Shown here piece by piece: positions 4,076 through 53,645 of a stretch of 64,000 nt of DNA (position 1 is its first letter; each line of letters opens with the position of its first letter). Source of the DNA: Bolinopsis microptera (lineage: Eukaryota; Ctenophora; Tentaculata; Lobata; Bolinopsidae); assembly GCF_026151205.1 (NCBI RefSeq), contig NC_087079.1:1514028-1578027 (forward strand), read 5' to 3'. The notes below the pieces were generated by a model. The model was not told the origin of the DNA. It ran no database searches and saw nothing but the letters and a program-made list of their open reading frames with translations. The position numbers and the translations under genes were made by a program.

Positions 4076-6788
4076 ATGAAACCAATTTTGTGTTTGCTCA
4101 CCATCATGTCCTGTGGAATGCCAGTTAGAAGTACAAGCGCCCATTCTAAAGTGAAACATGTTGGTGCTCATAGTAAAAGTAGCACTAAACCGCTACTTTT
4201 CAAGAAAAATGATGAATGTTTTGTGAAGGTGAGAAATGTTCAAAACTCACAGTTGGAAAAGCGATCTGCGACCGATTATTCGCTCGGTATCATTTTGCGT
4301 TTAAGTCCGGGAACGGTAATCAAAATTAATATCATTTTCTTTTGTTTGGAAAAAAGAGAAACTGGCGACGTTCCAACCTACCCAATTTTGGGTTTTGGTC
4401 AACAAAAGTAAAAACTGTTTTCTTAGAGATATTGGTTTATATTTGGTATTTGGTAATGCAGATAGCAGACTGATATATATTTGCTCATATTATTCAGGGC
4501 GTGATGCCGGAAAAAGTACTAACGGCTCATGAGATAGAAGAGGAAATAGGAGCTTTGAACAAGCAAAGAAACTGGAATGGACGGGTAGGTGAGAGGGAGT
4601 GGCTATATTACTGATAATTTACTTTTCAATCTAAAAAATTGAAACAGAATTAATTAATTACTAATTGGCGTTCAAAATCCTAGGCTCATTATTTTGCGTC
4701 CGTATCAAATTAACAGCACCCTTAATAGTAGATGCTTAGTTGTCTGTACATTTAAAATTGTATAATGATTAATGTATACCTCTTCAGAAAGTGTTTTACA
4801 AGATTGACAACTTTCCGAGATGCACTGAGATAAGTCAAACCACTATCAAGAAGCTAATTGATGAAGCAGCTCAAACTTGGAATAAAGTCCCGAATGCCAA
4901 TATTTTGTAAGAGTATGCTTCGAAAGATTCAGAAAATTTATGTTTCATATGGTTTTTGAGATTCGATAGCTATTAAGCATATATTTTTCATAACTTTCAC
5001 CCGTATTTTCAATCTAATTGATAATTATTAAATTATAAGTCACCCTCTATAGGCTTGTAAACGTTGATGATTTGGAGAAAACAAACGAAGTGGATTACAA
5101 CATGAACACCGAAGAAGAATTCAGCAATGAAATCAAAGATGTAATGGACGAACTCGTTCAAGTCAGAGAACTGGATAATGATGGTATCGACATAATGGTT
5201 AGCTTTGAACCGTGCAGCCACTTCAAGCACCGTGGCAAGACTCCTAATCCTATTGAGGAGGATTTCGGGGAGGAATGTGATGCTGTCTACGCTCACGCTC
5301 ATTTTTTTGGTATGTTTTATCTTAACGGGCGATATTCGTAAAATATGTAATTGTATTCGTTTCAAATACCGTCGACGAGTTCAACTCGGTGCACGTCTTG
5401 GTAGGTTCTAAACCAGGTTTAGTAAACCTACAAATTTTGTCTTGTTGCATTATAAGACTCGATAGAGGTATTGAAAATAGATTGCAATACTTTATACTAT
5501 CTTCCTTTATTACAAATTGCATGAACCGACATAAATTCTCCGTTTCATGCCAAATAAATTCCAAGTGTTGAACAATTTCACTTACTTCTTTTAAATGATG
5601 ATAAATAATGGACATCTCAGGTAATGTTCATTTCAACGAGTTGATGACGTGGGCGGAGAGGAGCTACCAAGATGAAGAATTGAAGGAGGGAGATGTTTTG
5701 AAACCTAATCTGTATTCTATTGCCTTGCACGAGTTCGGCCATTCCTTGGGATTGAGGTAGGTCACACAAACGATATATTTGTTAAAACTTGAATATAATA
5801 GAGGAGTTAAATAAACTTACAATTATAATTCAAGTGATTCTTATCACAAACAAATTGTATTTTTTTAATGAGATTTGAGAAATGACGATTTTTATCAGTC
5901 ACACGAACAAAAAAGAGGATGCGATGTTTTGGGATTTTAGTGGGAGAAGGATGCACGACCGTCTGGAATTAGGAAGTGATGATATCAGTAAACTGCAGAA
6001 TCTTTATAAGCCTGGTATGATTGGACATTTGTTATCTTAGAGACCCATCACAGATTGTTCTTGCCATTAAAAATTTTAACACACTTACTGACTGATTTAA
6101 AATTTAAATCTGTTTTATTTTGAGCTGTTTTATTTCAGGCATGAAGAATTGTAAAGATAATCACGCAATTTGTAAAAGAAATCCAGAAAAGTACTGCCAA
6201 CTCGACGAATTTAAACCACACTGTTTAAAAACTTGTGGCCATTGTGGTTAGTCACAAATTCTCTATTGTTTTATGAGTACTCAAGCTATTTCAGTATTTC
6301 TCGACGAGATTCAAATAAATTTAATATATAGCATGATATAGATTGAATCAATTGTAATTAATTTCAACTGTAGATCCTTGTGAAGATGACATTCAAGACG
6401 GGTACATTAAGTGTGATGAGAACATTTGCAAAGACTTGAAGGATCCAATGAGACCATTCTGCTGGAAGACTTGCAAACTTTGTGAACTAGAACCTGTTGG
6501 TAAGTTATTATAATAATTCAACTATACAATATACACAAGCTAGTATGATCTCACCAGTAAAAAATTACTGCTCGAAATTTTCGTTGAAACAAGATGAAAT
6601 AACTGATGTAATCACCGCCAGATGTGTCGGACTGTGAAGACGGAACCACGTTCGATTGCACAAGTTTGGATAGAATCAAGAAGAAATATAAGAAGAAGAG
6701 GAAATGCAGAAGGAAGGATTGGAGAAAGGCATGTCCACGGACCTGCGGAGTGTGCAGTGAGAACAACTCTACAGAAAATGTATTTTAG
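4076..6788 (+). CDS. Secreted matrix-metalloproteinase-like protease with three ShKT domains
   Basis: Nine exons keep frame: 4076-4228, 4498-4584, 4788-4906, 5053-5309, 5621-5756, 5899-6014, 6139-6246, 6374-6499, 6622-6788. The ATG at 4076 opens a signal-peptide-like start (MKPILCLLTIMSCG). The zinc site HEFGHSLGLSH is completed across the intron 5756/5899 and is followed by a Met-turn-like DAMFW. Upstream, FYKIDNFPRC and a DIMVSF strand match the M10 metallopeptidase fold. Three six-cysteine ShKT modules follow, one each in exons 7, 8 and 9. I see no PRCGxPD cysteine switch and no hemopexin repeats, so latency control must differ from classical MMPs. The likely role is extracellular matrix or secreted-protein cleavage. 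An alternative exon 1 donor at 4316 also keeps phase. The enzyme class is well supported, the substrate is unknown. Confidence 0.85.
5322..5433 (+). mobile_element. Copy of the ~100-bp TTAACGGG...AACCTACAA element
   Basis: Lies in the fourth intron of the metalloproteinase gene. It starts TTAACGGGCGATATTCG and ends in a hairpin-like segment finishing AAACCTACAA. The flanks GTTTTATC (5314-5321) and ATTTTGTC (5434-5441) agree at 6 of 8 positions, consistent with an old 8-bp target-site duplication. Younger copies lie at 17765, 18212, 18691 and 19715. Confidence 0.7.
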
Positions 6789-8210: not shown

Positions 8211-9392
8211 TCAGCAATCTGCTGGTCCAACATAAGATTCCTTTCCTTGTAGTCTATGCATTTCCTCAGCTGAGTTGTTCTGCTCCTCTAGAATTGTCTC
8301 AGCCTCTGCTACTCTCTTCTGTTCCTCTAGAATTGTCTCAGCTTCTGCTACTCTCTTCTGTTCCTCTAGAACTCTCAAAGCTTCTGCTACTCTCTTCTGT
8401 TCCTCTAGAATACGCTCAGCTTCTGCTACTCTCTCCTGCTCCTCTAGAACTTTCTCAGCTTCTGCTACTCTCTCTTGCTCCTCTAGAACTTTCTCAGCTT
8501 CTGCTACTCTCTTCTGTTCCTCTAGAACTCTCTCAGCTTCTGCTACTCTCTTCTGTTCCTCTAGAATACGCTCAGCTTCTGCTACTCTCTTCTGTTCCTC
8601 TAGAATACGCTTAGCTTCTGCTACTCTCTTCTGCTCCTCTAGAACTCTCTCCACCTCTGCTACTCTCTTCTGTTCCTCTAGAATACGCTCAGCTTCTGCT
8701 ACCTTCTTCTGCTCCTCTAGAACTCTCTCAGCTTCTGCTACTCTCTTCTGTTCCTCTAGAACTCTCTCAGCTTCTGCTACTCTCTTCTGTTCCTCTAGAA
8801 CTCTCTCAGCTTCTGCTACTCTCTTCTGTTCCTCTAGAACTCTCTCAGCTTCTGCTACTCTCTTCTGTTTCTCTAGAACTCTCTCAGCTTCTACTACTAT
8901 CTTCTGCTCCTCTAGAACTCTCTCCACCTCTGCTACTCTCTTCTGTTCCTCTAGAATACGCTCAGCTTCTGCTACCTTCTTCTGCTCCTCTAGAACTCTC
9001 TCAGCTTCTGCTACTCTCTTTTGCTCCTCTAGAACTCTCTCAGCTTCTGCTACTATCTTCTGCTCCTCTAGAACTCTCTCAGCTTCTCCTACTCTCTTCT
9101 GCTCCTCTAGAACTCTCTCAGCTTCTGCTTCTCTCTTCTGTTCCTCTAGAACTCTCTCAGCTTCTGCTACTCTCTTCTGTTCCTCTAGAACTCTCTCAGC
9201 TTCTACTACTCTCTTATGCTCCTCTAGAACTCTCTCAGCTTCTGCTACTCTCTTCTGCTCCTCTAGAATACGCTCAGCTTCTGCTACTCTCTTCTGCTCC
9301 TCTAGAACTCCCTCAGCTTCTGCTACTCTCTTCTGTTTGAGTTCCTCTAGAACTTTCTCAGCTTCTGCTACTCTCTTCTCATTCTCACCATT
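8211..9392 (-). CDS. Possible 13-residue-repeat helical protein (partial)
   Basis: The minus strand is open for 394 codons, from just below a TAA at 9393-9395 down to a TGA at 8211. It encodes about 28 copies of a 13-residue unit close to ERVLEEQKRVAEA, strongly predicted to be helical, and then a non-repetitive tail ending GPADC. The unit matches no family I recognise. No ATG precedes the array in frame, so an upstream exon would be needed. The upstream sequence offers only weak AG acceptors. Substitutions between units often keep charge (E/K/R) or aliphatic character (V/I), and the only large insertion is in frame. This mildly favours selection on the minus-strand protein, but non-coding satellite DNA is a real alternative. 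Confidence 0.3.
   Translation of the reverse strand, partial: NGENEKRVAEAEKVLEELKQKRVAEAEGVLEEQKRVAEAERILEEQKRVAEAERVLEEHKRVVEAERVLEEQKRVAEAERVLEEQKREAEAERVLEEQKRVGEAERVLEEQKIVAEAERVLEEQKRVAEAERVLEEQKKVAEAERILEEQKRVAEVERVLEEQKIVVEAERVLEKQKRVAEAERVLEEQKRVAEAERVLEEQKRVAEAERVLEEQKRVAEAERVLEEQKKVAEAERILEEQKRVAEVERVLEEQKRVAEAKRILEEQKRVAEAERILEEQKRVAEAERVLEEQKRVAEAEKVLEEQERVAEAEKVLEEQERVAEAERILEEQKRVAEALRVLEEQKRVAEAETILEEQKRVAEAETILEEQNNSAEEMHRLQGKESYVGPADC
8275..9380. repeat. 39-bp minisatellite (about 28 units), open on both strands
   Basis: Tandem 39-base units built around GCTCCTCTAGAACTCTCTCA followed by GCTTCTGCTACTCTCTTCT. Variants swap AACTCTCTC for AATACGCTC or AACTTTCTC. The period is a multiple of three, so the plus frame (Ser/Cys/Arg rich) and the minus frame (Glu/Ala/Arg/Leu rich) are both open throughout. 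One unit near 9335 carries a 6-base in-frame insertion. The low stop content is explained by the repeat itself, so an open frame here is weak evidence for a gene. Confidence 0.95.
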
Positions 9393-17287: not shown

Positions 17288-17400
17288 CTTAACGGATGAT
17301 ACTCGTTTAAATTGTTTCGAAGTAGCGCGCGCCGCTTTTTAATTCACGAAGCTTTGAAGTTAAGTAGCGCGCGCCGGTCAGTCAAACTATATTACATATT
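17288..17400 (+). repeat. Divergent TTAACGGATGATACTCG-type repeat
   Basis: Begins TTAACGGATGATACTCG like the small mobile element, but continues TTTAAATTGTTTCGAAGTAG and two GCGCGCGCC blocks. The same longer version forms the arms of the inverted repeat at 45527-46068, so this is probably a solo arm or relative of that element. Confidence 0.55.
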
Positions 17401-17764
17401 AAAGCTCAAACAATCCGAAAATTATCAGTTATTATAATATTGTTAGCTATTATAATCCATACATTATAAAATAGCTCTCACTTGCATGTTTGGCAGTTAA
17501 CGTCAACCGGTCACTGCAGTGATGCACCATGCACTGTACCCAGTCCCAATCATAAATCAATAAAGAGATCGATCAGAGTAGATGCTACCCGGAAATTTAA
17601 TTCGATTTAGTACGATTTAATTTTGTCAGGATATTAAATTATCAATTATGTTTCCAGCATGCAAAGCTTTTTGCGTCCATGAGATTATCAAATGAAGGCT
17701 TACCTGGGGACCTCAGGCTATTATGTTCATTAACATAATAATATAGATTCAGCGGAATGACAGG

Positions 17765-17862
17765 TTAACCATTAACGGGTGATACTCGTAAAATATCTGT
17801 TCCATATATTGGAGTCCAACTCGGCGCGCGTCCTCGTAGGTTGTATGTAGTAAACCTACAAA
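17765..17862 (+). mobile_element. 98-bp mobile element with perfect 8-bp target duplication
   Basis: Starts TTAACCATTAACGGGTGATACTCG-like sequence and ends AAACCTACAA. It is flanked by ATGACAGG at 17757-17764 and 17863-17870. The uninterrupted pre-insertion sequence is present elsewhere in the window: on the minus strand at about 48738-48815, ATGACAGG occurs once between the same left and right flanks. This is direct evidence of insertion. Confidence 0.88.
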
Positions 17863-18211
17863 ATGACAGGCTGAGCGCGGCCCAGTAAATGAAGGCACAT
17901 TCTTTTAAAATTATTTGGTCATAGTTTGTAATTAAAATTACAAAATTAAATAGGCTTTGGCTTTTTATGTACAAATTAACAAAAATGAAGTTGCTATTTT
18001 TAATAATTATATTATAAATGCACGTTCGTTTGCGCGTAATTTTCGTTTTACATAATTAACATTTTAACTTTCTGCTTTCAATGAAACAAATTTTTTTTTC
18101 AATGAAACAATTAAAAATTTAATTTTAGCACATCTTACAGAATAAAAAGATTTAAAACAATCCATAAAATATAATATAATGCCCTTGATACATGTTGCGT
18201 ATCCCAATTAT

Positions 18212-18310
18212 TTAATGGGTGATACTCGTAAAATATCTGTTCCATATATTGGACCGTCGACGAGTCCAACTCGGCGCGCGTCCGCGTCCTGGTAGGTTGT
18301 AAACCTACAA
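18212..18310 (+). mobile_element. 99-bp copy of the same element
   Basis: TTAATGGGTGATACTCG to AAACCTACAA, containing the hairpin CGAGTCCAACTCG and the second hairpin GTAGGTTGTAAACCTAC. Flanks CCAATTAT and CCAAATAT differ by one base. The plus-strand sequence at about 48889-48925 (ATACATGTTTCGTATCC, then AATATATCAG) looks like the empty version of this site. Confidence 0.82.
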
Positions 18311-18323
18311 CCAAATATCAGCG

Positions 18324-18356
18324 CGCGAAAAGTGGCATGCAACGTATGTCAATAAT
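18324..18356 (+). repeat. Dispersed repeat GCGCGCGAAAAGTGGCATGC
   Basis: The segment GCGCGCGAAAAGTGGCATGC followed by AACGTATGTCAA occurs here and again at about 50218-50250, where it follows a GC-rich palindrome. It is part of a host repeat that also contains the empty-site sequences near 48.8 kb. Confidence 0.6.
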
Positions 18357-18649
18357 GCCCAAGATACTTAAACTCCAAACAATTTTAAGTTGCAGTAATT
18401 TAATCTAATTGCAGCGGCACATAATTTAAACTATTGCTATCATTATATTGTACTATAGACTGAAAATCTCTCAGATCGATTTTGGCCGGCGTTTTTAACC
18501 ATTTATATCAATATAAGCTTTATCAAATTGCTTTAAATAAAAATTACAAACCAGACATCCATAAATGATAAATTTGCTTTATTTTTTTTGCGAAAAAACA
18601 TTATTTGATGCGCGGCGCGGCCCAATAGTGCATCGCAATACAATGCACA

Positions 18650-18990
18650 GGAGGACTATAGTGCAAAGAAACTGCTGAGCAGCAGTGAGCTTGTAGTTTT
18701 ACAACCAGATAGCGCCAATATATGGAACAGATATTTTACTGTTTACGAGTATCACCCGTTAACAGTGAGCAGCATTTTGCAGCAGTTTGCAGCAGTTTTT
18801 AGCAGTTGCGCGCGGCGTGCGTAGCAGCAGTGAGCAGCAGTTAGTAGCAGTGATCGCAGCAGCAGTGAGCAGTAGTGAGCAGCAGTGAGCAGCAGTGAGC
18901 AGCAGTGAGCAGCAGTTTCTTTGCACTATGCCCCTCCTGTGAGCAGTGAGCAGCAGTTAGCAGCAGTTTCTTTGTACTATAGAGAGTCGA
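18650..18990 (+). repeat. CAGCAGTGAG minisatellite with a conserved tail
   Basis: Tandem CAGCAGTGAG/CAGCAGTTAG units in several blocks, each ending TTTCTTTGCACTAT then variants of AGTCCTCCTGTG. An inverted tail (CACAGGAGGACTATAGTGCA) starts the region near 18648. The same array plus tail recurs at 50880-50970. The array is itself interrupted by a copy of the small mobile element. Confidence 0.8.
18691..18762 (-). mobile_element. 72-bp reverse-oriented copy inserted in the minisatellite
   Basis: Reads TTGTAGTTTTACAACC ... ACGAGTATCACCCGTTAA on the plus strand. It is flanked by perfect CAGTGAGC copies (18683-18690 and 18763-18770), i.e. an 8-bp duplication of the surrounding minisatellite unit. 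It lacks the central CGAGT hairpin, so it is an internally deleted or shorter version. Confidence 0.82.
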
Positions 18991-19132
18991 ATTTCTTTGG
19001 GGACAAAATGATGCTCTCCAGGATTTATCCAACTAGAAAGATCATGAAATAAAGACTCTGCAAACATCTCAGAGAAATATTACCACCATAAAGAATAAAG
19101 AGGCTTATATCCTGGACCCCGAAATCCACCAT

Positions 19133-20173
19133 TTTTCTGTACTTTCAGAGGTACCAATGTGGCAGGAAACCAGGGCTCATGCTGCCGCTGAGCTAAAGCA
19201 GTAGAGGGGATGGCGGCTTCTCTAGGATCTAACACGTCCTGAAGCAGACCAACACTATGTCCCAACGCAATGGTGTTGGGATGTCTGCCCCCGGTGCCTG
19301 TCGGGGTCAATAAAGCAGTCAAGCATCATGTATGTTATGTTGAGCATTCTCAACCAACAAATGTGGGAACTCCCACGAAAGACCAAAACAGATCTAAAGA
19401 GACACTTAACAACATTGGAAAAATAGACTTCAATTTGTTTATATAATTTATAAAGCGTATATTATTGCCCACGTTAAGGGGCCTGTTAATAATTTATTAA
19501 ATTATTAGCTATTTTAGATTTAATAATAATAATGTACTATAGTCCTCCTGTGAATGGGCCACGCCGACTTGTGAAAGATTGTCATCGCGTCGTCAATCAA
19601 CTATAATATGAACTAATTTTGTTATTTTTTCATTGTAGGAGGCGAGGTAACTGTTGCCAATTTTGAAGCAAATTTGTTTTATGTGAAACTGTAAATTGTG
19701 GAACTGTTTGTGTTTTAACGTGTGATACTCGTTAAATATTGTCAAATATTATATTTGTCCCGTCGACGATTGTCTAACTCGCAACTCGGCGTGCGTTTTG
19801 GTAGGTTATAAACCTACAATTTGTGTTAAACTGTAAATTATTTAAAAAATACAGTGTTATACTATGCAATAGTGAAGTCCCGCTAATTGTCTCTTTAGAT
19901 CTGTTTGATCGGTCTTCTATTGTGGGAGTTCTCACATTTGTTGCTTGAGAATGCTCAACATAACATACGTCATGATGCTTTTACTGCTTTATTGACCCAG
20001 GGCAACACTATGTCCCAACACCAGTGCATCGGGACATAGTGCTGGGCTGCTTCAGGATGTGTTAGATCCCAGAGAAGCCGCCATCCCCTCTAGTCTACTG
20101 CTGTAACTCAGGTCTCAGCGGCAACATGAGCCGTGGTTTCCTGCCACATTGGTACCATTGAAAGTACAGGAAA
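19133..20173. repeat. Large inverted repeat, arms ~275 bp
   Basis: The left arm (19133-19405) and the inverted right arm (19888-20173) share GTGGCAGGAAACCA, the segment around TGTCCCAACGCAATGG, CTCCCAC and GATCTAAAGAGAC. Between them lie about 480 bases, including the element copy at 19715. A third, disrupted copy in the left-arm orientation lies at about 20250-20350 and 20690-20765, split by unrelated sequence. No coding is supported. Confidence 0.75.
19715..19819 (+). mobile_element. 105-bp copy with TTTGTGTT target duplication
   Basis: TTAACGTGTGATACTCG to GGTTATAAACCTACAA, flanked by TTTGTGTT at 19707-19714 and 19820-19827. This is the third perfect 8-bp duplication for this family in the window. 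Confidence 0.87.
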
Positions 20174-28400: not shown

Positions 28401-31400
28401 CGTCATTAAATTATGTATTTATTTTCCTGTTTTCCTGAATGGTGTTAAAATTAAGTTTTAATGTTTTGAATACTTAGTAAATACTATAAGGTTTTTTCTT
28501 AAAATTCAAATAACTTCCCTGCAAGTAAATAATTACAAATAACCACAGGAGACGGACACTGTTCAGTGTACTATTCCCCCATGGCTAACACTTTTCCTGC
28601 TAACAACACTTCTCTAGAAGAACTGAAGGACTCTGTTCCTACCCTTCCTTCTATCAATATGTCTTCCAGGAGAATCAGCCACATCAAACAGAAGAGGTAT
28701 TCTTCTTCTTGTCTTCCCTAGATTCGTATCTAAAAGTATCTAGATTCGTATCTGTTCGAGTTTAATTGCTATCATCTGGATTTGCACGGTAATAGGTGAC
28801 TCTTGTAGCCCGATTGCTAACCTCACATTATAACCAATCGAAAGGTTGTGACTGGTGGTTTGCTTATTATATCTGGGTTGGGTCTCATAGTTACTATTCC
28901 CACAACGTGATGGTTAACACTTGACCAGGCGGTGCTCCAGTATAAACGCGGGTGTAAAAGCATTGCGAGTAAACCTCTCTGACGATGGCACACAGCACTT
29001 TAGTAAACAAAGTTTTGAGAAGAAACAGTTCGACTGCTCTGTCGACAAACTCTGCTTCTTAGATGTGAGTTTTTTATCAGTGTTGTATCGGGCGTTTTGT
29101 TTGGAGAGTATTTCTGTATTTATTTTGAAGTGTCCATGATATAAATAAAAGAACAAATTTTGACATAAATTATAATCAGCAGTGAGTACTTATTTATTTA
29201 TTAAACAAAAGTTAAATCTATATCATTATTTTTTATACGCAATCAAAAATTATATTTCGAGTTTTGTTTATGTTGCTAAAATCTCCTGGTGCATCAACTT
29301 CTTCTCTTAGTAACATATCATTATTCAATCATTAAATTACAATCATAATTAACATTAATTAATTAACAAGTTACAATAATAATTAACATAATTAAACAAT
29401 CATTAATCCCCTCAGGCACGCCCAACATCCTACAACACTGCTACATTGATATCAGCCCACAGTTACGGTATCATTAGAGCCTGGTCCTGCCGAGGCGGCG
29501 GTAAGTTTACTGTTTTGTTAATTACAATAATAATATTAATTACAATAACAAGTCATCAAATAATATCATTCTTGAAAAAAACTACCTGTTTGAAAAAAAA
29601 AGAAAACTTCAAATTGTTCTTGAATTGGCCACAACTTTCTTTCCACGACTAGATAAAACAAATAGATAAATAATTTGTTTCTTCGTTATGCATATTACAT
29701 ATAATATTGCACATATGTTCAGTTCCGATCTACCAATCTCGATTGTACTATTTCTGATGTTTTCAATATAACCTAGTCAGCACGACGTTGAATCATTCTT
29801 CTCCGTATTAGTGAGAACTGTAGTTGCAACTGTTTTCCCTGTTCTGTATTTCTTTAACCTCTCCCTGAAGTCCCCCGACCTCACCAACATGATCAGAGGA
29901 TTAAGAGCTGACAAGGCACAGTTAGATAAAGGAAACTGTACGAACTCTAGATAATGTCTGACCACCACATCATGAACAGTCCAACTGACCGTCAGTGAGA
30001 TAACAGAGATAAGGAACTGAGTCACAACCAGGAAGTTTATCAGACAAACAGTGAAACAAGCTGGACACTCTCCTCCTGGAGGGAGGTTGTTCTTTTCCCG
30101 CTCTTTGTGGTGACGACGTAGCCCTCTCATACTGGCACAAGCGCTGGTTACTGACACACAGACAGTGAGGACGTAGGTGAGGAGGACGAGGAAGAGAGTG
30201 GGAGTGAGGGTGTGGAAGTTCAGTACTTGTTGGGTGTAGATACACCAGGCTTTTGTTGGGTCGTAGATCACGTGCAGGACTATTGCTCCCGTCGTGATGA
30301 AAGCTGGGAGTTTGGTTGTTATTGTTATAAACGTATGTATTTTGGAATTTTGGATTGTGAACCGCTTACTATAAACGGTAAACCTGAGAATGGTATATTC
30401 TATTATTAAAAAAAGCGCCATGGATTGTAATATATAAAAATAAAACTGTACCTCCAGCTGCTAATATGGGCAGGACAGTCACATTCCTAAGTTTTAAGAA
30501 AGGTCTCAGAATAACACAAGATCTGACGACTCCGAACACGGCACCAATCAGAATACTCCACTGGAATAAGCTAGCTCGTATCACCGTGTACCAGATCTAG
30601 GGGGGAAATGTTTCAAATCGGAAAACTAATTTTAGTAATGTTAATGATCGGTTGGTAATTCTATAATTGCTCAAAAATGTAGGATGAAAGTTTTTGAATC
30701 CCATATTTTCCCTTTATCATGGATATATTACCTGCCAAGAATGCACATCGTAATCTAGACTCTCCAGATCCTGTACTAACAGCAAGTACAAAACATACGG
30801 GACTCCAACTAAACAAGTACAGAAATCATTAACCGTCAGGATCTGGAACAGAACCGCTGACACATTCTGCTTTTCTCTTCTGTAGTGGAAGAAGACGTAG
30901 GGGTTACAGAAGAATGACAGAAGGAAGAACAGGAGGAAGAACAGAGCGAAGAAGTAGTTTGCGAAGATGTCGCCGGGTGTGGCAGCGTGGAGTAGTTCTC
31001 CTGTTGTTTGGTTGTATATGTTGCCGAATATAGCCATCCTTTTGTAATAGGGAGTTGGGGTTATGTTGAATTTAACGTATTTACTTAGCTGCTTTAGCTA
31101 ATATTTTATGTTTATATTTATTTAAGTGCATCTTTCTCACAGATTTCTTAAAGAGATACTCACAAACCTAGAGAAAACTCAACAATAAACAGACACGGGT
31201 TTGAAATAAAAATTTGATCTTCAGTCCTCTATAAGAAGGCGACATGAGACTTTGAAACATTTCAAGTAATGAAATGATGTGGATCCAAGAAACAATATAT
31301 CCTAATTGTCACGAGCAACGACCAGCCACATAAAGTGTGAAGGTGTAGTTGTTAATGCAATCACACGGAACTATACGCTACCGTCAGGTACCGCATTGAA

Positions 31401-37400: not shown

Positions 37401-40400
37401 CATTCCTACTTCCTACAATTTTCTACCTCCCAGGTGTACGACATATCAAAATGGTGTGTAGCCGTGCCACGTGCAAAGCGGTACACAACAAACGCCATGC
37501 ACAGACAGCCTGCTGTGTTCTTCAGCGAGCCTCCCAAATCTGCTAAATTCCACTGTCATCTCAGTACGATAACAAATGTGGAGCTGGTGCCTGTAAAGAA
37601 CCTCATTATTACCAGTAGTACTGACTGTTCTATTAGAGTCTGGACTCTTAATGGTACTTATATCGGTTAGTGGGAATCTGAATATTCTTTAATTATGTTA
37701 ATGTTTTTACTATCACGGCCGGAGAAAAAGTAAGATATTCGGATTAAAGTGGGATTAAGAATACTAAAATGGCTTGATCTCCAACCCGACATTTAACCCG
37801 ACATAAATTACCAAGTGGCGTCATAAAAGTATTTAAATGTCAGCTGGTAAAGTGGCCTAGAATTTACTGTAATCACCTAGAATATATTAGGTGCAAGAAG
37901 AGTTTTCTAGAATTCACTATGCACCATAATAATGATAATGTACTAGAATCTAAGGATCATTCAGGAACGTTTGGGCAAAGCAAGGAGTGGAAGCTAAGAC
38001 CTACGAGCGCTGACCCCTTTATTTTACCTGACGATGTTAGGTCTCTGCTTACAGAAGATCAGATCAACAAGTTTAAGAGGAGAAAAAGAAAGTTCAACCC
38101 TTGGAAGTGAGTGAAAGTAGATCTCTTCAAATTCCACCAAAACAGTTGATCATTTACACTTTTATTCGCGCCGTGTATCTTTTCAACGTGGTACTTCAGT
38201 AGGTTACTTGTCAATTTAATTGGCTTTCAATTATTTTACCAGCGCTGAATTTGTTATTTTTGCAGGAGTGTGAAAGCCATCATGGCATTCACGAAAAATG
38301 CTTATCACCCGTAAGTTTTAAAGACGCTTTATTCGGATGATCATCGGTTACCTTTAATTTATTCTTTTAACTTTGAACTCTGATTAAATTTTCTGTTTAC
38401 TCTTTTTACCATTATTACGTCCAGTAACGACAATATCGACCGACAACTTGAAGAAGATGAGGCTTTCAAAATAGCAAAGGACTGTGATAAAAGTTACATT
38501 CTTGGTAAAGCTTACCATAGGACAACGAGACCTAGGCAACCTATGGTAGGAACTTAATTAATAGCATTCTTGACAATTATGGGCAGGTTTGTTATGGCAC
38601 GTGGCAGCGATTCATTAAATAATCCTGATAATACGATCTTGACGACTCTTTCTTCGTGTCCGTGTAGCTGTTGATGCTGTGTTCAGCTAGCTGACATTTT
38701 ATGGCTACATAAGCGCGCAGATAACGGGGCGCGCGTCCGACTATCGAGACATTTTAATTAAAAGTTCGTTCAAGTTGTTAGCATTTACTATGACAGAAAT
38801 GAAAAAAAAAGCGATATAAATTCATTAACCATAGCGATCTATTCAGTTTAACCGCTATTTATATACAATGTACTGGCCAATGGCTTAGATGTTATTGAAA
38901 ATAGTGACCAGCAATCAGTAATATATCTTCATGACAAGATTTCCGAAACTTTTTTACTCCTGCTTGAATCCATCTCTGCGGAAGCGTACTTAAATCTCAA
39001 ATCTGTGATAACTTTAAACTGACATAACATTTTCAGAGAACAGTTTCGGTGGGCCAAGAGTGTGGTAGTATCCTGGCTTACTCCCAATTAGACAACAAGC
39101 ACATGACACGTGACCCGGTTATACCCTACCCACCCAATCATATGAAGGTCATGGGCAAAGAAGGACTGCCCAGATTTAACGCCCAATCCCTCGGTGAGTG
39201 GTTTGAGAGTTCATGTTATATTTTCTGACACATCGATCAATCTGTTGAAAAATGTAAGGTATTTATGAACATGCAATTATCCTTATCTTCTTGATGTTCG
39301 CACGGTCGACGTTTTGTAGCCTAATTGATATCTAACCCCGTCACTGGATCTCCAGAAGCCCATGAACTATAACTGGGCATGGGCGTGCAGTATTGGACTA
39401 TATAAGTTAAGACATTACATAACCATGTTATGGTTACTGAATATACCGCTCTTTTTCCAGAGTTGATAGCGGAAGAGCAACAGAGGCTAGCTAACAAATA
39501 TCTGCGTAAAGATGACGAGAGTGAAGCAGATAGAGATGTGGATGAGTTCATTCCCAGAAGTAAGAAGTTTAACGAGAAGAACCTCCTTCCTCACGTGTTA
39601 GTCAAATTATCATTTTTATCAAGAACTTTATCTGAAGTCCTCCTTTTTGTGGCCATTTTTGTTTCAATGTTTTTATGATAAGAGTATTCTCATACATACA
39701 TGTTACATGGCGAGATCTCCATCCAAAAGGATTAGTCTGCGTCGACTGCGTCATTACTTTGTATTATACAACTTCGGCGGGTAATATTTCTCCATCCGTT
39801 TCGGTCTGCAGCTAATCTTCTCATACAATCAATCGTGAGTCCATTACGATCCAATCTCTGCTCAGCATCCTCAATGAATACATCATTTAAGCTCTTCCTA
39901 GGCCTGCCTCTTGATCTCTTCCCATGCTTGGGTTTCCATTCAAGTAAATAGTTGGGTAACCGATCTTCAGGCATTCTACTGACATGTCCAAACCAACGCA
40001 GCCGTTTTGTTGTTATTATGTCAGCAAGGGCAGTTATTGATGCCCTTCTTAAAACATCCTCATTACTTACTCGATGGAACCACCTCACTCTCAGGATTCT
40101 TCTTAAGCAGTACTGATGGAAAGACTCCAATCTTCTTGTCTGCACTTGAGTCGTGTTCCATATCTCACATCCATAGGTCAGAATGGTAAGAACAGCTGCA
40201 ATGTAGATTCGCACTTTGTTGTTAATGCTTATGTTCTTATTCTTCCAAATGTTGTTGAGTTGGTTAAAAGCTCCGGTTGCTTTTCCAATCCTGACACTTA
40301 TTTCTTTATCAATCTTGCCATCTGATGTAATTTTGGCACCTAAATAAGTGAATTGAGTGACCTGCTTTGCAGAGTTTCCATCGACAGTTATATCTATGGT

Positions 40401-43400
40401 CCTATTCTCTGGGAGTGGGTGCTGCGATGTATCTTTCCCAATGACCATGATCTCTGTTTTCTTTGCGTTCATCTTTAAACCCCCAAGCCCACAATATTTC
40501 GCAATATTGTCCGTAGTTTCTTGCAGTCCTTCAACAGTGTCATCCATTCCTGCGATGTCATCAGCATAGTCAAGATCAATGACACATTTTTCCGGTTGTC
40601 TGGAACTTTGTCTGTACTGAAGTGTAAAACCACGGGATATATTCTTAAACTTCTCTGCAAGTTCTAATCCCCAGTTAAGTACAAGATTAAAAATGGGGGG
40701 CCCTTGCACATCACCTTGTCCAGTCCCCGAATCGACATCAAACCATCTTGTCAATTCTCCATTGACACGAACTGCACTTTCAGTTGCTCTAAAGAACGCT
40801 TTGAAAACATTGATATATTTTGTCGGAAGACCATAATGTTCAAAAGCTTTCCAAATAAAGTCACGATTGATTGAATCAAAAGCAGCTTTAAAATCAATAA
40901 AGTTTATGTACAAAGGGACGTTGAATTCTATACAATTGTGTATTATACAATGAAGTGAGTACAGCTGATCTATACAAGAACGGTTTCTCCTGAAACCACA
41001 CTGATTCTCTCTGAGTAATTTTTCAAGCCCATTACTCAGTCTTTTTAACAACACAATTTGGAATAACTTTGATATAGTTGAGCGTAAAGTTATACCTCTG
41101 TTATTGTTGCAATATGTGAGGTCCCCTTTCTTTGGGATGATGGTGATTATTCCTTTTCTCCAATCATTGGGAATATCCTCACTTTTCCACACATTTTCAA
41201 AAAGATCCTTTAACCAAGGCAGAAGTCCAGGAGAACCGTACTTTAACTGCTCATTTGAAATTTCATCAATTCCAGCACTCTTGTAGTTCTTCAACTTCTT
41301 GATAGCTTCCTCAATTTCAAACAAGGACGGTGGTTCATCATCATTACTAAGGTATTCAAAAGAAAGTAACTGTTCATCCTGATCCAATATAGAGAAATCC
41401 ACCGCATTTGCTGCTGGCGTCAAGAGTTCTTCAAAATATTCGGCCCAGCGATGTGATTGAGCTTCGGGATCTGATATAAGCGTCCCATTCTTATCCCGCA
41501 CTGCCGCAGATCTGTTAACTCTCTTGTTTGTAAGGGATTTTATTTTCTGCCAAACATCTCTTTGTTGACCCTGCTTGGCAGCATCTTCTAATTCCTTGCA
41601 GCTATTCTAACAGCCCAAGCATTATCATCTCTTTTACAGTTCTGCCTAACAAGACCGTTAATCCGCGAGTACTTAGCACGGTTCTCAGCAGTGCTGGGTT
41701 TCTTTTTAATCTCCCCTCTTTCTTTTAGGAGATTCTTAGTATCCCTTGAGAGATGTTCTGTTCTCTTTTTCCGGCCCCTTTCACCCAGAACTTCAAATGA
41801 AACATCAGTTATTATATCTCTCAAATTTTTCCACTTTTCTTCTAAAGGAGAGTTTCCATGCTCCTGATCGTTGTTATAGTACTCTTCAGCTATTCTGTTA
41901 CTATATTCCTGGCTCTTAGATCTATCACGCAGGTGCTCTAAAGCAGGCTGTCTTACACGCTTCTTTCTTTTCTGAGGACACTTAAGTTTAATAGATACAT
42001 ATCCTCTAACCAGATAGTGAGTAGTATTTATATCTGCTCCTCTCATGCTCCTGACATCAAGCAATGAATGGCTCCATCTCGTCGAAATACACATATGGTC
42101 AATTTGAGTGACGGTGTTACCATTTGGGGATCTCCATGTTGTCTTGTGGATATCCTTGTGTTCAAAGAGTGTGCCTCCAATCGTCAGCTGGTGCATTGTA
42201 CAGAAATCTAGCATCCGTTTTCCGTTATCATTTGATTCTGTGTGATATGAGTGTTTTCCTATAACACCAGGGTGAGCATCAGTATCCCTTCCAACACGAG
42301 CATTAAAATCTCCTAAAACTATTTTTATATCATGAGCAGGTAGTCCCGATTGAACATCATTCAATTCCTTGTAGAATGAGTCTTTTAAACTGATTTCAGC
42401 ATCCTCAGTTGGAGCATACACAACTGTAACACTAATGTTGATGTGTTTGCTATGTAAACGGGCAGTCATAACCCGTCCTGATACAGGGGTGTATGATATG
42501 AGAGTATTCTTCATCTTTTTGGAAAGAACAACACCAACTCCTTCTCTCCGTACTCCATCGCTCCTGCCAGAATAAACCAAAACAGCCCCATTGCTCAAAG
42601 TCTGAGTTCCTGATCCAGCCATATGTGTTTCAGTTACCCCAAGGAGCTCTAGTCCATAATCATCAACACCTTTTCCTAATTGATACATCTTACTGGAATT
42701 ACTGACAAGAGAAGTAACATTCCATGTACTGATACAGAGAGGATTCTTTACAATATTTACAGGATTAGACATACTTGACTGTCTGTTTACAAATGACAAA
42801 TCTGATGAAGGAATTCTGTATTTACAGTGTTTACGTCGGCTCTTACGGGAGTTGCAAACAGACATCAAGCTACTAGGGTCCTTTCGGCTTTGCCTAGTCG
42901 CCGTCATCACTCCACCTGCGCCTCCACGTATAATACTATTGAATGACACTGTAGACGTTTCTGTAGCGGTTTGATTTAAGGTGGATGGTTTGCCGGACCT
43001 TCGCACCCGATCCAGAGGCAGCACCGACATCAAGAAGTTAGCGCTCCGTCCAGACACCAGCAAGCTGGTGGTTAGGTTCGATACGTAAAGTTAAAGCATG
43101 AAGAGCTTCTGAAGCCCATAGGGAATCAAAATTAAACCGTAAGTGATCATGTCAGAGACAAGATCACCAAGCAAATGCTCGATTACACAGGGCAACCAAG
43201 ACTTGGACAAAATGGTGAACCGTGAGTGACACACAGATGACCCTGCCACAAGACAGCATCACCGAGCACCACCCAGCAATTGCATCCTCTCGCCACCACA
43301 GCAACCGACCCCCCAGTGATATAGCACTGACAGGCAATTAACGGTTTCATGGTGTTACCACTCCCAGGTGATCTGTGCTAACAGACTCGGACCAGATGCA

Positions 43401-45526: not shown

Positions 45527-46068
45527 TTGACCATTGTTAATGGTCTGGCCCGGCGCGTGCTACTTCATAGCACTTGCCGTCGGGCCATAACATTTCGAGA
45601 AGAAAGCGGGGCGCGCTACTTCGAAGAAATTTTATAGACGAGTAACATCCATCAAGCAGTTAGGCTGTTGATCACTTGCTGTGGTAGCAGGTTCCATAGT
45701 CTCGCTGCATTCACTCCAAAGCACAAAGGAATTCTCGTAATGAGTAATGAGTGGCCACTGATCGTTGCAATTTGTTGTTCAGTGGTGGGACTATGGCTTT
45801 TATGCCATTTCGAGCGTTTTCCTTGAATATCATCTTATGATGTCATTTAAAGCAGACAATAAAGTTTCAAATATTAGGAAGGATCTCTGGCAACAAGGAC
45901 AAAAGAAAATTGCGATAATTTAGGCCAAACATCGTGGCTCCGCGTTGACGGATGTTACTCGTTTAAATTTCTTCGAAGTAGCGCGCGCCGCTTTCTTCTC
46001 GAAATGTTGGCCCGATGGCAAGTGCTACGAAGTAGCGCGCGCCGGGCCAGATCATTAACAATGGTCAA
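45527..46068. repeat. Inverted repeat element, ~120-bp GC-rich arms
   Basis: Left arm 45527-45650 and right arm 45950-46068 are inverse copies containing TTGACCATTGTTAA, GGCCCGGCGCG, ATTTCGAGAAGAAAGCGG and ACGAGTAACATCC. The right arm begins TTGACGGATGTTACTCG, related to the start of the 100-bp mobile element family. The spacer encodes, on the minus strand, a peptide ending ARLWNLLPQQVINSLTA then stop (about 45720-45660). This resembles the extreme C-terminus of LINE reverse transcriptases, so a LINE end appears to be captured between the arms. Confidence 0.7.
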
Positions 46069-47297: not shown

Positions 47298-48367
47298 TTA
47301 TTGTCCAGTGCTCTTGTACCAGCAGCTAGATTTGTCAGCAGTGTTTAGAGCTGGTACAGTTGGAGGTGAGTAATCCTGGTAGTAGAAGTTATACTTATAG
47401 GGATGACCTTGCTCAGGTAGGAACCAGGTCCGGTTATATTTCCACATCCTGAACAAGTAGAATACAGGGTTAGCGGTAGCGTTGAAGGAGGTCAGAAACA
47501 GATGAGATTTTAGAAGTCCGTACCAGCTGTCATGTAGGTGCCGTAGTCAGTTGTTCCGGTTCGGTAGATAATGTTACACCTCGTTTGAAGGACAAGAAGA
47601 GGAAGGTTGCAGAGGAGAAATACAGCCGTGAAGAGGGTGATCGATATAGACACTTCCGAGAAATTCCTTTCGTTTGCATTTTGGGTGGCAAGGCGTGCTC
47701 TGGCGGCAATGGCTCGCAGGCTGAGGATGAAGCTTGCGAAGACCACCAGTGACCCTAGCAGTAACCAGAGCATGATGATGTAGACGATAAAGTTAAAAAT
47801 CCAGATTGGAGCGCCCTGACCAGGGATCATGCCGCATATTAGTACTCCTGGGGCATAGTGTATCATCTGCAGGCTTCCGGTCCCTAGAACAATCGCATCA
47901 AGTAAAATCCAGAATAGCTCAAAAACAAAACAGGCTGCAATCACCCCTCTCCTTTTTATTTCGTAAAAAGGTCGAAAGATTGCTATGGTTCGTGTTGCAC
48001 TTATCATGATAACCATGAACATGGTGAAGCGTTGCAGGTGGCTGAAGGGCACACCCCAGGCACCACATGACGTTAACAGGACTGGAAGCCTTTTGTTGAA
48101 CACAGAGGGGATGGTGCCGATGGCCACGGTGGATGTACACAAGTCAGTTATGACGATGATGGTGTCATGTAAACGAGATCTGGGAGAGTTTGTTTTAGTT
48201 TTTTTCCAGAAGTATATCGTTGCTGATGTGTTACCTAGGATCCCGACCAGCACGACGAGGATCAGGAGGAATCCGATGAAGGTGTCTGCGAGTACACTGG
48301 CTTTGACTCCGTTTTCTTGAGCCTCGAAATAGATGGTGTGACTGTCCTCTAATATTTTCGCTGACAT
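47298..48367 (-). CDS. Rhodopsin-like GPCR (frame broken once before helix 7)
   Basis: ATG at 48367 (MSAKILEDSHTIYF). Helix 1 contains the GN motif (GILGNTSATIYFW). Helix 3 ends SATRTIAIFRPF, helix 5 is VYIIMLWLLLGSLVVF, and helix 6 is ITLFTAVFLLCNLP. The first frame stops just after DYGTYMTAG (47510). A different frame then reads WYGLLKSHLFLTSFNATANP and VFY, a clear helix 7 with NPxFY, and a tail ending YKSTGQ at TAA 47298-47300. One missing base near 47522 restores a single receptor. An AG directly before the start suggests an untranslated 5' exon. It is a different subfamily from the nested receptor. Ligand unknown. Confidence 0.8.
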
Positions 48368-48384
48368 GTTCACTGAAATTATGT

Positions 48385-48500
48385 TAGCTGATATGTTAGC
48401 TGATATGTTAGCTGATATGTTAGCTGATATGTTAGCTGATATGTTAGCTGATATGTTAGCTGATATATTATATTAGCTGATATGTTAGCTGATATGTTCA
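48385..48500. repeat. 12-bp tandem repeat GCTGATATGTTA
   Basis: About ten near-perfect copies directly upstream of the minus-strand receptor start, within the presumed 5' untranslated or promoter region, followed by a TATATA tract at 48556-48590. Confidence 0.9.
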
Positions 48501-48737
48501 GCATATCAGTTAACAAAATCGCCATATTCAGGTGCCTTAAAAACCATGTTAAAATATATATATATATAATATATGTATATATTGTTTTACGATGTTCTCG
48601 TACAAATTGGAAACACGATATAACTATGAGGTATCACTCTTGAAAGTAGAATACTAATTATAAAAGTAACATAGAAGATAACAGAACTGCTCGAACATCA
48701 CGTCCTAAATAATTCTAAAACGGCACTTATACTTACT

Positions 48738-48930
48738 GGGCCGCGCTCAGCCTGTCATTCCGCCTAATCTCTATTATGTTTATGAACATGATAGCCTGAG
48801 GTCCCCAGGTAACACTTATAGTTATACATGGAATGACACGTGACGAGTGATTCATGACCATGAGACATGAAACTACTTGATACATGTTTCGTATCCAATA
48901 TATCAGAGATGTTAAAGACTGCTGTTGATA
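48738..48930. repeat. Host repeat carrying two empty insertion sites
   Basis: Minus-strand 48815-48738 matches 17697-17895 without the 98-bp insertion. Plus-strand 48885-48930 resembles 18187-18330 without the 99-bp insertion. This repeat therefore preserves the pre-insertion state of two element copies. Confidence 0.7.
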
Positions 48931-51900
48931 TAAAATGACTCCGGGTTCGAGCTAACCTCATCAATACGCTAGGGAGGGAGCCGTACTAGGATAATTGATA
49001 CGATGCTCATACGTAGTGCGATTATTAATGCTCACGTCTAGATACTTTAGTGATTAAGATTTACTTAGGACTGTAACCTTGAGATTAGTATTTGTGACAT
49101 CATTTAATTACTTATACTTGATTCTAAGCCATGAGCCAAACGGCCATTCCTAATGCTAAGGGTTACAAAATAAAGACACTTAAATTGTTGGTTAAAGTAA
49201 CACATAGAATAAATACGGTAGACACTCTTAGTTACAGAGAGAGTGGACTACAATGAATAGCATATATCAATATCTTTCCTAACTAATAACTAACTTATAA
49301 TGAACTTCCTAACTTATAACTTACTTTCCTAACTTAACTAATTTATCTACTAAGGGTTAAGACAGTCACTCATATGAGAGCTGGCAATACACATCGGGAT
49401 TGTGGTGCTGAACTCTGCCATATTCTTTGCATCAAAAGATATATATAGTCGCGTGGGTGATCATGTGACCCACGTGCTTGAATGATCATGTGACAATGAT
49501 TTCATGTACTTGAAGCGACTGACAAGGTACGTGATAAATTGATAGTGGTAATATCTTGCCGCTCTCCGCGTCGAAGAGACTGCTCGATCGCCTGTACCAG
49601 GGCTGTCAATGTCCGTGAGGTAGTTGAGCCGCTTCAGTTGTGATTAGAAGATAAGGATAAGATTCGATTTTGATAGTTACTTAGTAACAGCCGTTACCAG
49701 CTGTCACACAATGGTAGAACTATAGGGTGCATTTATAGGGTGCATTTGTAGGGGCTATAGTGAGCGAGAAGCTATACATGTGTGAGGTGATAACCAATTT
49801 CAATAAGTATGGTTGAGTGCACTAATGTTCACTTGTCACGCCGTGTTGCATTTTAAAGAGCTTGACGGGCCGCCCCATTGGAAGAGCTCCTATGCGGGCA
49901 AGAGATAATGCCTAGATGACACATTGACTATCTTGCGGGTGACCTGACAACTATGGATGAATCCGTGTGGCATGTCATGTAATGTTGATACCGTAATCTT
50001 TCAGCAGAGTTCACCAACGTACCCAAGATAAAAGTTAAACTTAGTTATGGTAAATAAGGAATATAAATGAAGGTCCTTAAATCGCCTCGACTCAGGGAAT
50101 ATCATCCATACCATTACACTACAACTGGTGAATAAGAACTAAATGAAATCCACCATGTTCGCCTTGACACAGCGAAACCCATCTATAACAAGAGATATTA
50201 TCGGCGGCGCGCGCTTCGCGCGCGAAAAGTGGCATGCAACGTATGTCAAGAAACTACTATCTAAATGGTTGTGAAGTCGTGGTGAAGTGAACACGTGACA
50301 ATGACAAGTGATAAGTGTTCTCCAAGGTGAAATTAAATGTGCTGACTTTGTGCATATGAAGTGAATTCTTGCTGAAAGTAGATTGTGAGTGCTTGTTTAT
50401 GTTATTTGAAATTGATGTGAGAATAATGTGCAGTGGAGCATGATGTGATGTGATTTGTGACTATGAATACCTATAAAACATCTAAAACAAATAACACTGA
50501 TTATAATTATAACAATAAAATATACTCTTTAAAAGGAAACACAACATATAATATGTATTTATTGCCTAACCTATCGCATACAAAAAGCTCAGAAACTGTC
50601 GCAATATTATGAAAGTTGTGTAAGAATGATTTAGTGTGTACTGAGTAGTGTTAAGATCTAAACAGACTCTTCTTCATGATGCTTACGATTGAAATATTGT
50701 AATATTGTCAATGCTTAGCTTCTAGCAACCTCTACGGCTACCCAACACGACACGCTCCACATTGAAACCCGTGCAGATCAGAACCCTTCCCCTCTAAATC
50801 AGCAAACGCAAATGTTTTATCGCGCGCAACTCTCAATTATAATATATTTCACCCCCTTGGCCTTCCACACAGGGAGAATATTTGCAGCAGTCAGCAGCAG
50901 TTAGCAGCAGTTAGCGACAGGTAGCAGCAGTTAGCAGCAGTTTCTTTGCACTTTAGTCTCCCTATGTGTCCATGAGTGGCGTAACGTTACCTGTTTGCTG
51001 TTGCCCACCCAATAGCGTGACTACTTGACTAGTTTTTGTAGAGGTTCCTCAAAAGCTCAAAAGTAATTTTAAACGATTCCCAGTTCCACAGTTCAGTTAC
51101 AATTTGGTTGAAACACTAAAACTCAGTGCAGAATTGAGCAAGTTTAAAGTTATAAAGATATTTTATACGTATCAAATTAAATAAGTGCTTTATTTTTAGC
51201 TGTGGAGATATAGCTGATGTGTGATAGCGCGCGCCTTAAAAATAAAATAACAAATAAATGCTACGGCTTCCACTTCAAGCGTCCAATTAATGTCCGTTCA
51301 AATTAAGTCTGCGTCCGGTAAGGTAATTTAAAAGATGCATTAAAGTTAAACCTTGCTATGGTGAAAATTGATTTACTCAAAATTGTGCTCAACGTTGAAC
51401 GTGCAGCTCGTGCAGTGGAAAATAACAATGACATGACAATCAACAATGATATTGATTATATTTATATATTATATTATACATGTTATAAATATAAGAGAGC
51501 GGCGCGCTGTGTTGTAATTTTTGTTAATTAACTTTAAGCATCAAACTTTTTCTTTTTGTTAATATTCTAACTTGTGCACGTTTATAACTTGAGTCCCAGT
51601 CCCGTAACTTGAATCGAATCCTATGACTAACGTAACTTCAATCACGCGGTTCTATAAGCTTCTCTCGAAGAAAATAACAATAGCATTAATCATTATACAT
51701 TTTCTAATGTAATTACTACAAATAAAAACAGCGGCACTAAAAGTTATCTGGCACCATGCTATTAGTATTATGTTCATATTAAACATAAAGATTCAGCGAA
51801 ATGACAAGCTGAGACGCCCATGAGTAAAAAAAAGTTATAATTATATTTCGCGTCGATTATGTGTTCAATTTGGGCAAATTGTATACTAAATACTTATGCT

Positions 51901-53481: not shown

Positions 53482-53572
53482 TTGTAGGTTTATAACCTAC
53501 CAAGACGCGCGCCGAGTACAGTTGGACTCGTCGACGGTCTTGAAACAAATATATTTTACGAGTATCACCCGC
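53482..53572 (-). mobile_element. Diverged reverse copy of the ~100-bp element
   Basis: TTGTAGGTTTATAACCTACC at one end and ACGAGTATCACCCG at the other, with the CGACGAGTCCAACT-type centre between. I do not find a target-site duplication here. Confidence 0.65.
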
Positions 53573-53645
53573 TAGAAATATTGCCAAATTGTTATTATTC
53601 TAGAGGGTAAAAAAGAAAATTTTGATAACGTAATCAACGACCAAA

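Follow-up and report, generated by a model that had tools for sequence, protein, structure and literature searches.

A window of 64,000 nucleotides from the genome of the ctenophore Bolinopsis microptera (C8:1514028-1578027) carries scattered copies of a repeat of about 100 bp, which raises the question of what so short a sequence is and how it moves. The genome comprises 264.65 Mb in 232 contigs, 13 of them chromosome-sized, with the largest at 26.2 Mb. We argue that the repeat, here called F1 (consensus length 93 bp), is a non-autonomous cut-and-paste transposon. It would be one family in a group of nine or more, marked out mainly by the structure of their ends, be moved by a transposase supplied in trans, and be a miniature that arose by internal deletion. 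We give this joint reading a probability of roughly 0.82.

Six F1 copies lie in the window, three with exact flanking duplications, two with imperfect ones and one with none. The original prediction had counted seven related copies; the seventh, at 17289, is a relative rather than a copy. The features are, in window positions:

5322 to 5433, plus strand: F1 copy, 112 bp, with degraded flanks (about 6/8 matching)
17289 to 17400, plus strand: relative, with an F2-like left end (TTAACGGATGATACTCG), a different interior and an ill-defined right end
17756 to 17764: target-site duplication AATGACAGG, left of the F1 copy at 17765, 9 bp, exact
17765 to 17861, plus strand: F1 copy, a 7-bp TTAACCA prefix plus a 90-bp core (17772-17861), with an internal 10-bp deletion and a 7-bp insertion in the loop of the right hairpin
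17862 to 17870: target-site duplication AATGACAGG, right of the F1 copy at 17765, 9 bp, exact
18212 to 18310, plus strand: F1 copy, 99 bp, close to the full consensus, flanked by CCAATTAT / CCAAATAT (7/8 matching)
18214 to 18230, plus strand: left dyad of the copy at 18212, arms of 7 bp, 3-nt loop GAT
18292 to 18308, plus strand: right hairpin GTAGGTT-GTA-AACCTAC of the copy at 18212, followed by the terminal AA
18691 to 18762, minus strand: F1 copy, 72 bp, with a large internal deletion and an exact 8-bp duplication CAGTGAGC (minus strand GCTCACTG)
19715 to 19819, plus strand: older F1 copy, 105 bp, with an exact 8-bp duplication TTTGTGTT
53482 to 53575, minus strand: F1 copy, 94 bp, with no duplication left

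The 8-bp flank first described as ATGACAGG is the last eight bases of the 9-bp AATGACAGG. F1 has the left end TT[AACGGGT GAT ACTCGTA] and the right end [GTAGGTT GTA AACCTAC]AA. Of the two hairpins initially proposed, the right one is perfect, and the left one is imperfect, with five Watson-Crick pairs plus G.T; in the copy at 18212 a T replaces a C in the left dyad. The 7-bp TTAACCA prefix lies inside the duplication in some F1 copies (window 17765-17771 and L026; L-numbers denote genome loci examined besides the window), so the outer cut can move over to a further TTAAC 7 bp away.

The window also holds, on the minus strand, a LINE-type element (39732-43090) with two large ORFs that read as endonuclease-like and reverse-transcriptase-like, and a long coiled-coil-like ORF (8211-9392) with near-identical 13-residue repeats (RVAEAERVLEEQK). 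ORFs at 29777-31097 and 47510-48472 read like putative seven-transmembrane receptors.

Two of the F1 insertions are nested within other short elements. These hosts and other elements of related families in the window are:

17700 to 17888, plus strand: F5 element, host of the F1 copy at 17765, ends TTACCTGGGGACCTCAGGC...GCTGAGCGCGGCCCAGTAA
18185 to 18352, plus strand: F6 element, host of the F1 copy at 18212, with its own 8-bp duplication TAATGCCC
45527 to 45655, minus strand: F2 element of 129 bp, flanked by the exact 9-bp duplication CCTAACTGC
45945 to 46068, plus strand: F2 element of 124 bp, flanked by the exact 9-bp duplication GGCTCCGCG
48733 to 48812, minus strand: uninterrupted F5 element, the empty-site paralogue of 17700-17888
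48877 to 50249, plus strand: long F6-ended unit of 1,373 bp, flanked by the exact 8-bp duplication GAAACTAC

The F5 host has an 8-bp duplication of its own, ATGAAGGC, at 17692-17699 and 17889-17896. When the F1 copy at 17765 and one AATGACAGG are taken out, an intact 83-bp F5 element results, like that at 48733-48812. Removal of the copy at 18212 likewise leaves a 61-bp F6 element with its duplication TAATGCCC, like the F6 element in L040. The claim of empty sites for two insertions is thus upheld, and both nested insertions bear out the precise ends. Because the hosts are F5 and F6, the host repeats noticed at first reading are themselves members of the F1 group. The 1,373-bp unit is another long form, with F6 ends; it is non-coding, with no ORF longer than 60 aa.

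F1 is present in thousands of copies, where hundreds had been predicted. Its left-end 17-mer (TTAACGGGTGATACTCG) has 2,327 exact matches across the 264.65 Mb of the genome and its right end (GTAGGTTGTAAACCTACAA) has 1,386, while the reversed pattern of each has 0. Exact end matches number 1,493 for F2 and 2,269 for F5. In a set of 65 F1 copies, flank matching is complete (8/8) directly at the end in 25 and one base further out in 11, compared with 0-1 at all other offsets, and per-base matching is about 0.6 before it drops to background past eight positions. The one-base-shifted cases are exact 9-bp duplications, so the 8-bp to 9-bp ratio in F1 is 25:11. Across 118 exact-flanked elements of all families, the duplication is 8 bp in 68, 9 bp in 49 and 10 bp in 1. 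Its length varies by family: F3 duplications are 8 bp in 14/14, and those of F8 are 9 bp in every exact copy. The duplication is therefore 8 or 9 bp rather than the fixed 8 bp first proposed. A 50-bp F8 element on the minus strand of L086, with an exact 9-bp duplication (AGGCACAGT), may be one of the shortest transposons whose ends are intact.

F1 is not alone: its group comprises at least nine tiny families, related to one another by the geometry of their ends. We searched 338 kb, made up of the window and loci around F1 and F2 copies, without regard to sequence, for TT followed by a 7-bp arm, a 3-nt loop and a 7-bp arm, with the mirror image ending in AA and an exact 8-bp flanking repeat. 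Since the loci were chosen around F1 and F2 copies, the mix of families is biased; the geometry controls were run on the same sequence. The search returned 84 matches, and with the flank displaced it returned 1, 1 and 0. The 7-3-7 geometry at an offset of 2, with a length of at most 260 bp, yields 73 unique elements. Ten alternative geometries yield 0-1 elements each: loop sizes of 1, 2, 4, 5 and 6 give 0 each, and offsets of 0, 1, 3, 4 and 5 give 0, 0, 1, 0 and 0. None of the 15 other outer dinucleotides yields any. The elements recovered sort into seven families, F1-F7.

Because this search selected palindromes, it was rerun without the hairpin filter, on repeated sequences adjoining 8-11-bp direct repeats. 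The top groups were again F1-F7, plus two extra families. F8 has the ends TT[CACAT AGCC ATGTG]...[GCTCT GGTT AGAGC]AA, that is, 5-4-5 dyads, with 9-bp duplications. F9 has a 7-3-7 dyad at its left end and none at its right end. Not all ends are thus 7-3-7, the exceptions being F8 and the right end of F9, and all nine families (9/9) start with TT and end with AA.

Pairing between the arms is kept while their sequence changes. Across the 18 ends of the nine families, 90/126 positions of the 7-3-7 arms form Watson-Crick pairs, against a mean of 44.8 and a maximum of 68 in 20,000 trials with reshuffled arms. Within one element, the left arm agrees with the right arm at 3.2/7 positions, compared with 2.5 between families. 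We find no classical inverted repeats: the two ends of each element bear different hairpins. The simplest reading of the kept pairing is that a hairpin, cruciform or dyad would be recognised. The ends also have sequence in common (TTG....YGWTR....C, with a directional GWT loop), so recognition need not be by structure alone.

Such ends bring to mind movers that use a hairpin-recognising single-strand (HUH) enzyme, as do bacterial REPINs and IS200 or algal and plant Replitrons. End hairpins that vary in sequence and keep their pairing, the directional loop GWT and the lack of inverted repeats all point in that direction. However, insertion of IS200 or REPINs leaves no duplication, and the precision of the 8-9-bp duplications across 118 elements speaks for a staggered cut through both strands. 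Replitrons are able to leave 2-8-bp duplications, but they have 5-11-bp direct terminal repeats, which are absent from the F consensus sequences, and they are reported only from green algae and non-seed plants (PMC10741241). We therefore regard an HUH mover as improbable.

Long F1 elements exist with the same ends. Pairing of left and right F1 ends on chromosome C1 yielded an 8,505-bp element (C1:2524532-2533036) with the exact 8-bp duplication TGTTATGT on both sides. Another copy of its left interior, with an exact right end 9.5 kb away, turned out to be a second long element of 9,490 bp (C1:9269584-9279073), with the exact 8-bp duplication AGTTTGAG. Their left interiors are 96% identical. 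As their exact duplications differ, the two are independent insertions of about 9 kb with the same ends. Other candidates fared less well. The stretches C1:3335769-3338016 and C1:660491-661399 are bounded by F1 ends, but their two flanks do not match, and they were rejected as long copies; two F2-ended units with duplications, L063 (1,413 bp) and L087 (717 bp), contain nested repeats and hold no transposase-sized ORF.

The 93-bp F1 is an internal-deletion derivative of the 8.5-9.5-kb form. It consists of the first ~40 bp and the last ~54 bp of the 8,505-bp element, and intermediate forms occur: a 250-bp copy in L047 retains 124 bp of the long right interior (98%), and at C1:3256820 about 137 bp of the long left interior adjoin an F1 left end. 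In 35 copies, 34/62 indel events fall at F1 positions 34-56, the meeting point of the long element's left and right parts; as the element's middle was missing from the first query, the sampling carries some bias. The right hairpin is a second cluster of insertions. F1 copies that are free of substitutions and have intact duplications differ in their small deletions and templated-looking insertions. These junctions would fit a history in which gap repair following excision was interrupted time and again, each time deleting internal sequence.

Inside the 8,505-bp element, a unique left part is followed by ~930-bp tandem repeats. These are 93-98% alike and occupy its right half (L106, L107 and L108, within C1:2524550-2530500). 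The left interior of the long form occurs in about 15-20 copies genome-wide. Copies cluster near contig ends (C8:66614, C10:18199307, C11:103029, C6:274338-337365, C2:22474844, C7:19816830, C3:5541 and C9:17353221), several of them covering positions 1-348 of the left-interior query. This suggests a subtelomeric repeat derived from, or common to, the long F1 element.

The long forms also bear on whether F1 could be a SINE-like set of retroposed copies of a small structured RNA. Its short size, its dispersed copies and a predicted folding better than that of shuffled sequence are what such an origin would give. Nevertheless, nearly every copy has a duplication of 8-9 bp instead of one of variable length, a 3' tail is absent and both ends are precise, and 8.5- and 9.5-kb copies have the same ends. 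The fixed duplications and long copies together strongly disfavour a SINE-like origin, which we consider extremely improbable, in agreement with the original prediction. A hammerhead, other ribozyme or known RNA was also considered and rejected: the window stretch matches no Rfam family, and the only match in the long element is Ocean-VII, at 24.8 bits against a gathering score of 53.5. Cut-and-paste transposition, of which a short duplication, precise ends and a longer parent with both ends are the marks in F1, is well supported.

Which transposase moves F1 is a separate matter. The expectation of an autonomous element with the same ends was borne out as to longer relatives; none that encodes a transposase turned up in the small part of the genome that was read. 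The portion of the 8,505-bp element covered, ~70% or ~6 kb, has no ORF longer than 74 aa and no credible Pfam domain. Thus, the 8.5-kb copy is probably non-autonomous too. Of 368 hAT candidates, 150 were scored, and none of these lies in C1:2524532-2533036 or C1:9269584-9279073. The P RNaseH-N domain was not detected genome-wide, in a search run without a positive control. The Merlin and MULE transposase domains have 58 and 88 matches in the genome, respectively, many of them intact, multi-copy ORFs; none lies inside the two long F1 elements. Loci L091-L097 carry Merlin transposases with intact ORFs of 318-337 aa, in several young multi-copy families whose right ends and duplications are poorly defined. 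In the draft genome of the related Mnemiopsis, only remnants of Merlin are reported (PMC8101967).

The ends of F1 do not match those of the families first proposed. The hAT elements have CA/TA ends, with terminal inverted repeats that begin with YARNG, and their duplications are of 8 bp only; here all ends start with TT, left and right arms differ, and 49/118 elements have exactly 9 bp. P elements have CA... terminal inverted repeats and an 8-bp duplication, and the F families have neither such ends nor duplications of 8 bp only. MULE/Mutator duplications are 8-10 bp and usually 9, a size that the F families share. Merlin elements typically have 8-9-bp duplications and 5'-GG terminal inverted repeats (PMC8101967); the F families agree with them in duplication size and lack the 5'-GG repeats. 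The assignment to a hAT, P or Merlin type therefore fails, given ends of TT...AA and no common terminal inverted repeats, and we file F1 under none of the three.

The shared duplication size leaves the suggestion that the F families are nothing more than MITEs from an established superfamily, MULE/Mutator or Merlin, with terminal inverted repeats that have decayed or are very short. The many intact MULE and Merlin ORFs in the genome favour this suggestion. On the other hand, Merlin ends in GG and all F families in TT/AA, and no Merlin or MULE match falls within the long F1 elements. One Merlin family, of which two copies were compared, has the left end GGCAGTTTAC, which starts with GG and has no TT dyad. 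Merlin was rejected as a carrier at seven loci lacking a TT dyad pair, other Merlin families extending past the sequence stretches taken. One 4.6-kb MULE locus was read; it has no matching end pair, and MULE was rejected as a carrier there. Furthermore, decay of inverted repeats does not account for dyads that are conserved although their arms differ from one end to the other. We consider this suggestion unlikely.

F1 nonetheless resembles MITEs of the hAT, P, Merlin and MULE superfamilies in several respects. Both are short and non-autonomous, with thousands of copies and 8-9-bp duplications, and both are internal-deletion derivatives of a longer element; like MITEs, F1 would be moved in trans. 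Unlike MITEs, which have CA, GG or G termini, F elements are unusually short (50-135 bp), run from TT to AA, have no terminal inverted repeats and bear a different dyad at each end. Their ends are also tied to no hAT, P, Merlin or MULE transposase in the loci examined. REPINs, served in trans by RAYT, are likewise ~100-bp non-autonomous units with two inverted bounding hairpins, but they are prokaryotic, leave no 8-9-bp duplication and use a Y1 HUH enzyme. ATon elements of Aedes aegypti, a precedent for a large group of unresolved class that lacks a known autonomous source, also form many tiny non-autonomous families, with subterminal stem-loops in one family; unlike F elements, they carry terminal inverted repeats, and their insertion at AT produces no 8-9-bp duplication (PMC3422177). 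Introner elements, too, are non-autonomous DNA transposons of very small size, and short duplications occur in some of their families, such as the 8 bp in Aureococcus (PMC9860276). F1 departs from introners in that its ends differ and its copies are seen largely in or beside other repeats. A search of a limited body of literature for hairpin-ended elements with 8-9-bp duplications returned no match.

F1 would behave as a MITE does, its transposase acting in trans and making staggered cuts. Each end presents the outer TT (AA opposite) and then a short dyad, usually with a 3-nt loop between 7-bp arms. The enzyme, encoded elsewhere, would recognise the two different end dyads and cut the element out, then cut the target with an 8- or 9-bp stagger and join the element there, producing the 8- or 9-bp duplications. 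We infer a DDE-type enzyme, the DDE chemistry from duplication size alone. Continuing deletion and repair around the centre would give each F1 copy its own junction.

Transposon ends are usually classed by inverted-repeat sequence and duplication size. It is possible, and we propose it tentatively, that the F families represent a superfamily of DNA transposons in animals that has so far gone unrecognised, with ends read as a hairpin or dyad (TT + 7-3-7) rather than as an inverted-repeat sequence, so that one system moves many unlike-looking families. A structural rule without sequence picks out transposons here with almost no false matches, and is thus a search tool for families missed by inverted-repeat software. 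With more than 5,000 exact end matches from three families alone, these elements form a large component of a ctenophore genome. The long and short forms of F1 show miniature elements arising by internal deletion, and the dyads allow a direct test of whether a eukaryotic transposase reads DNA structure.
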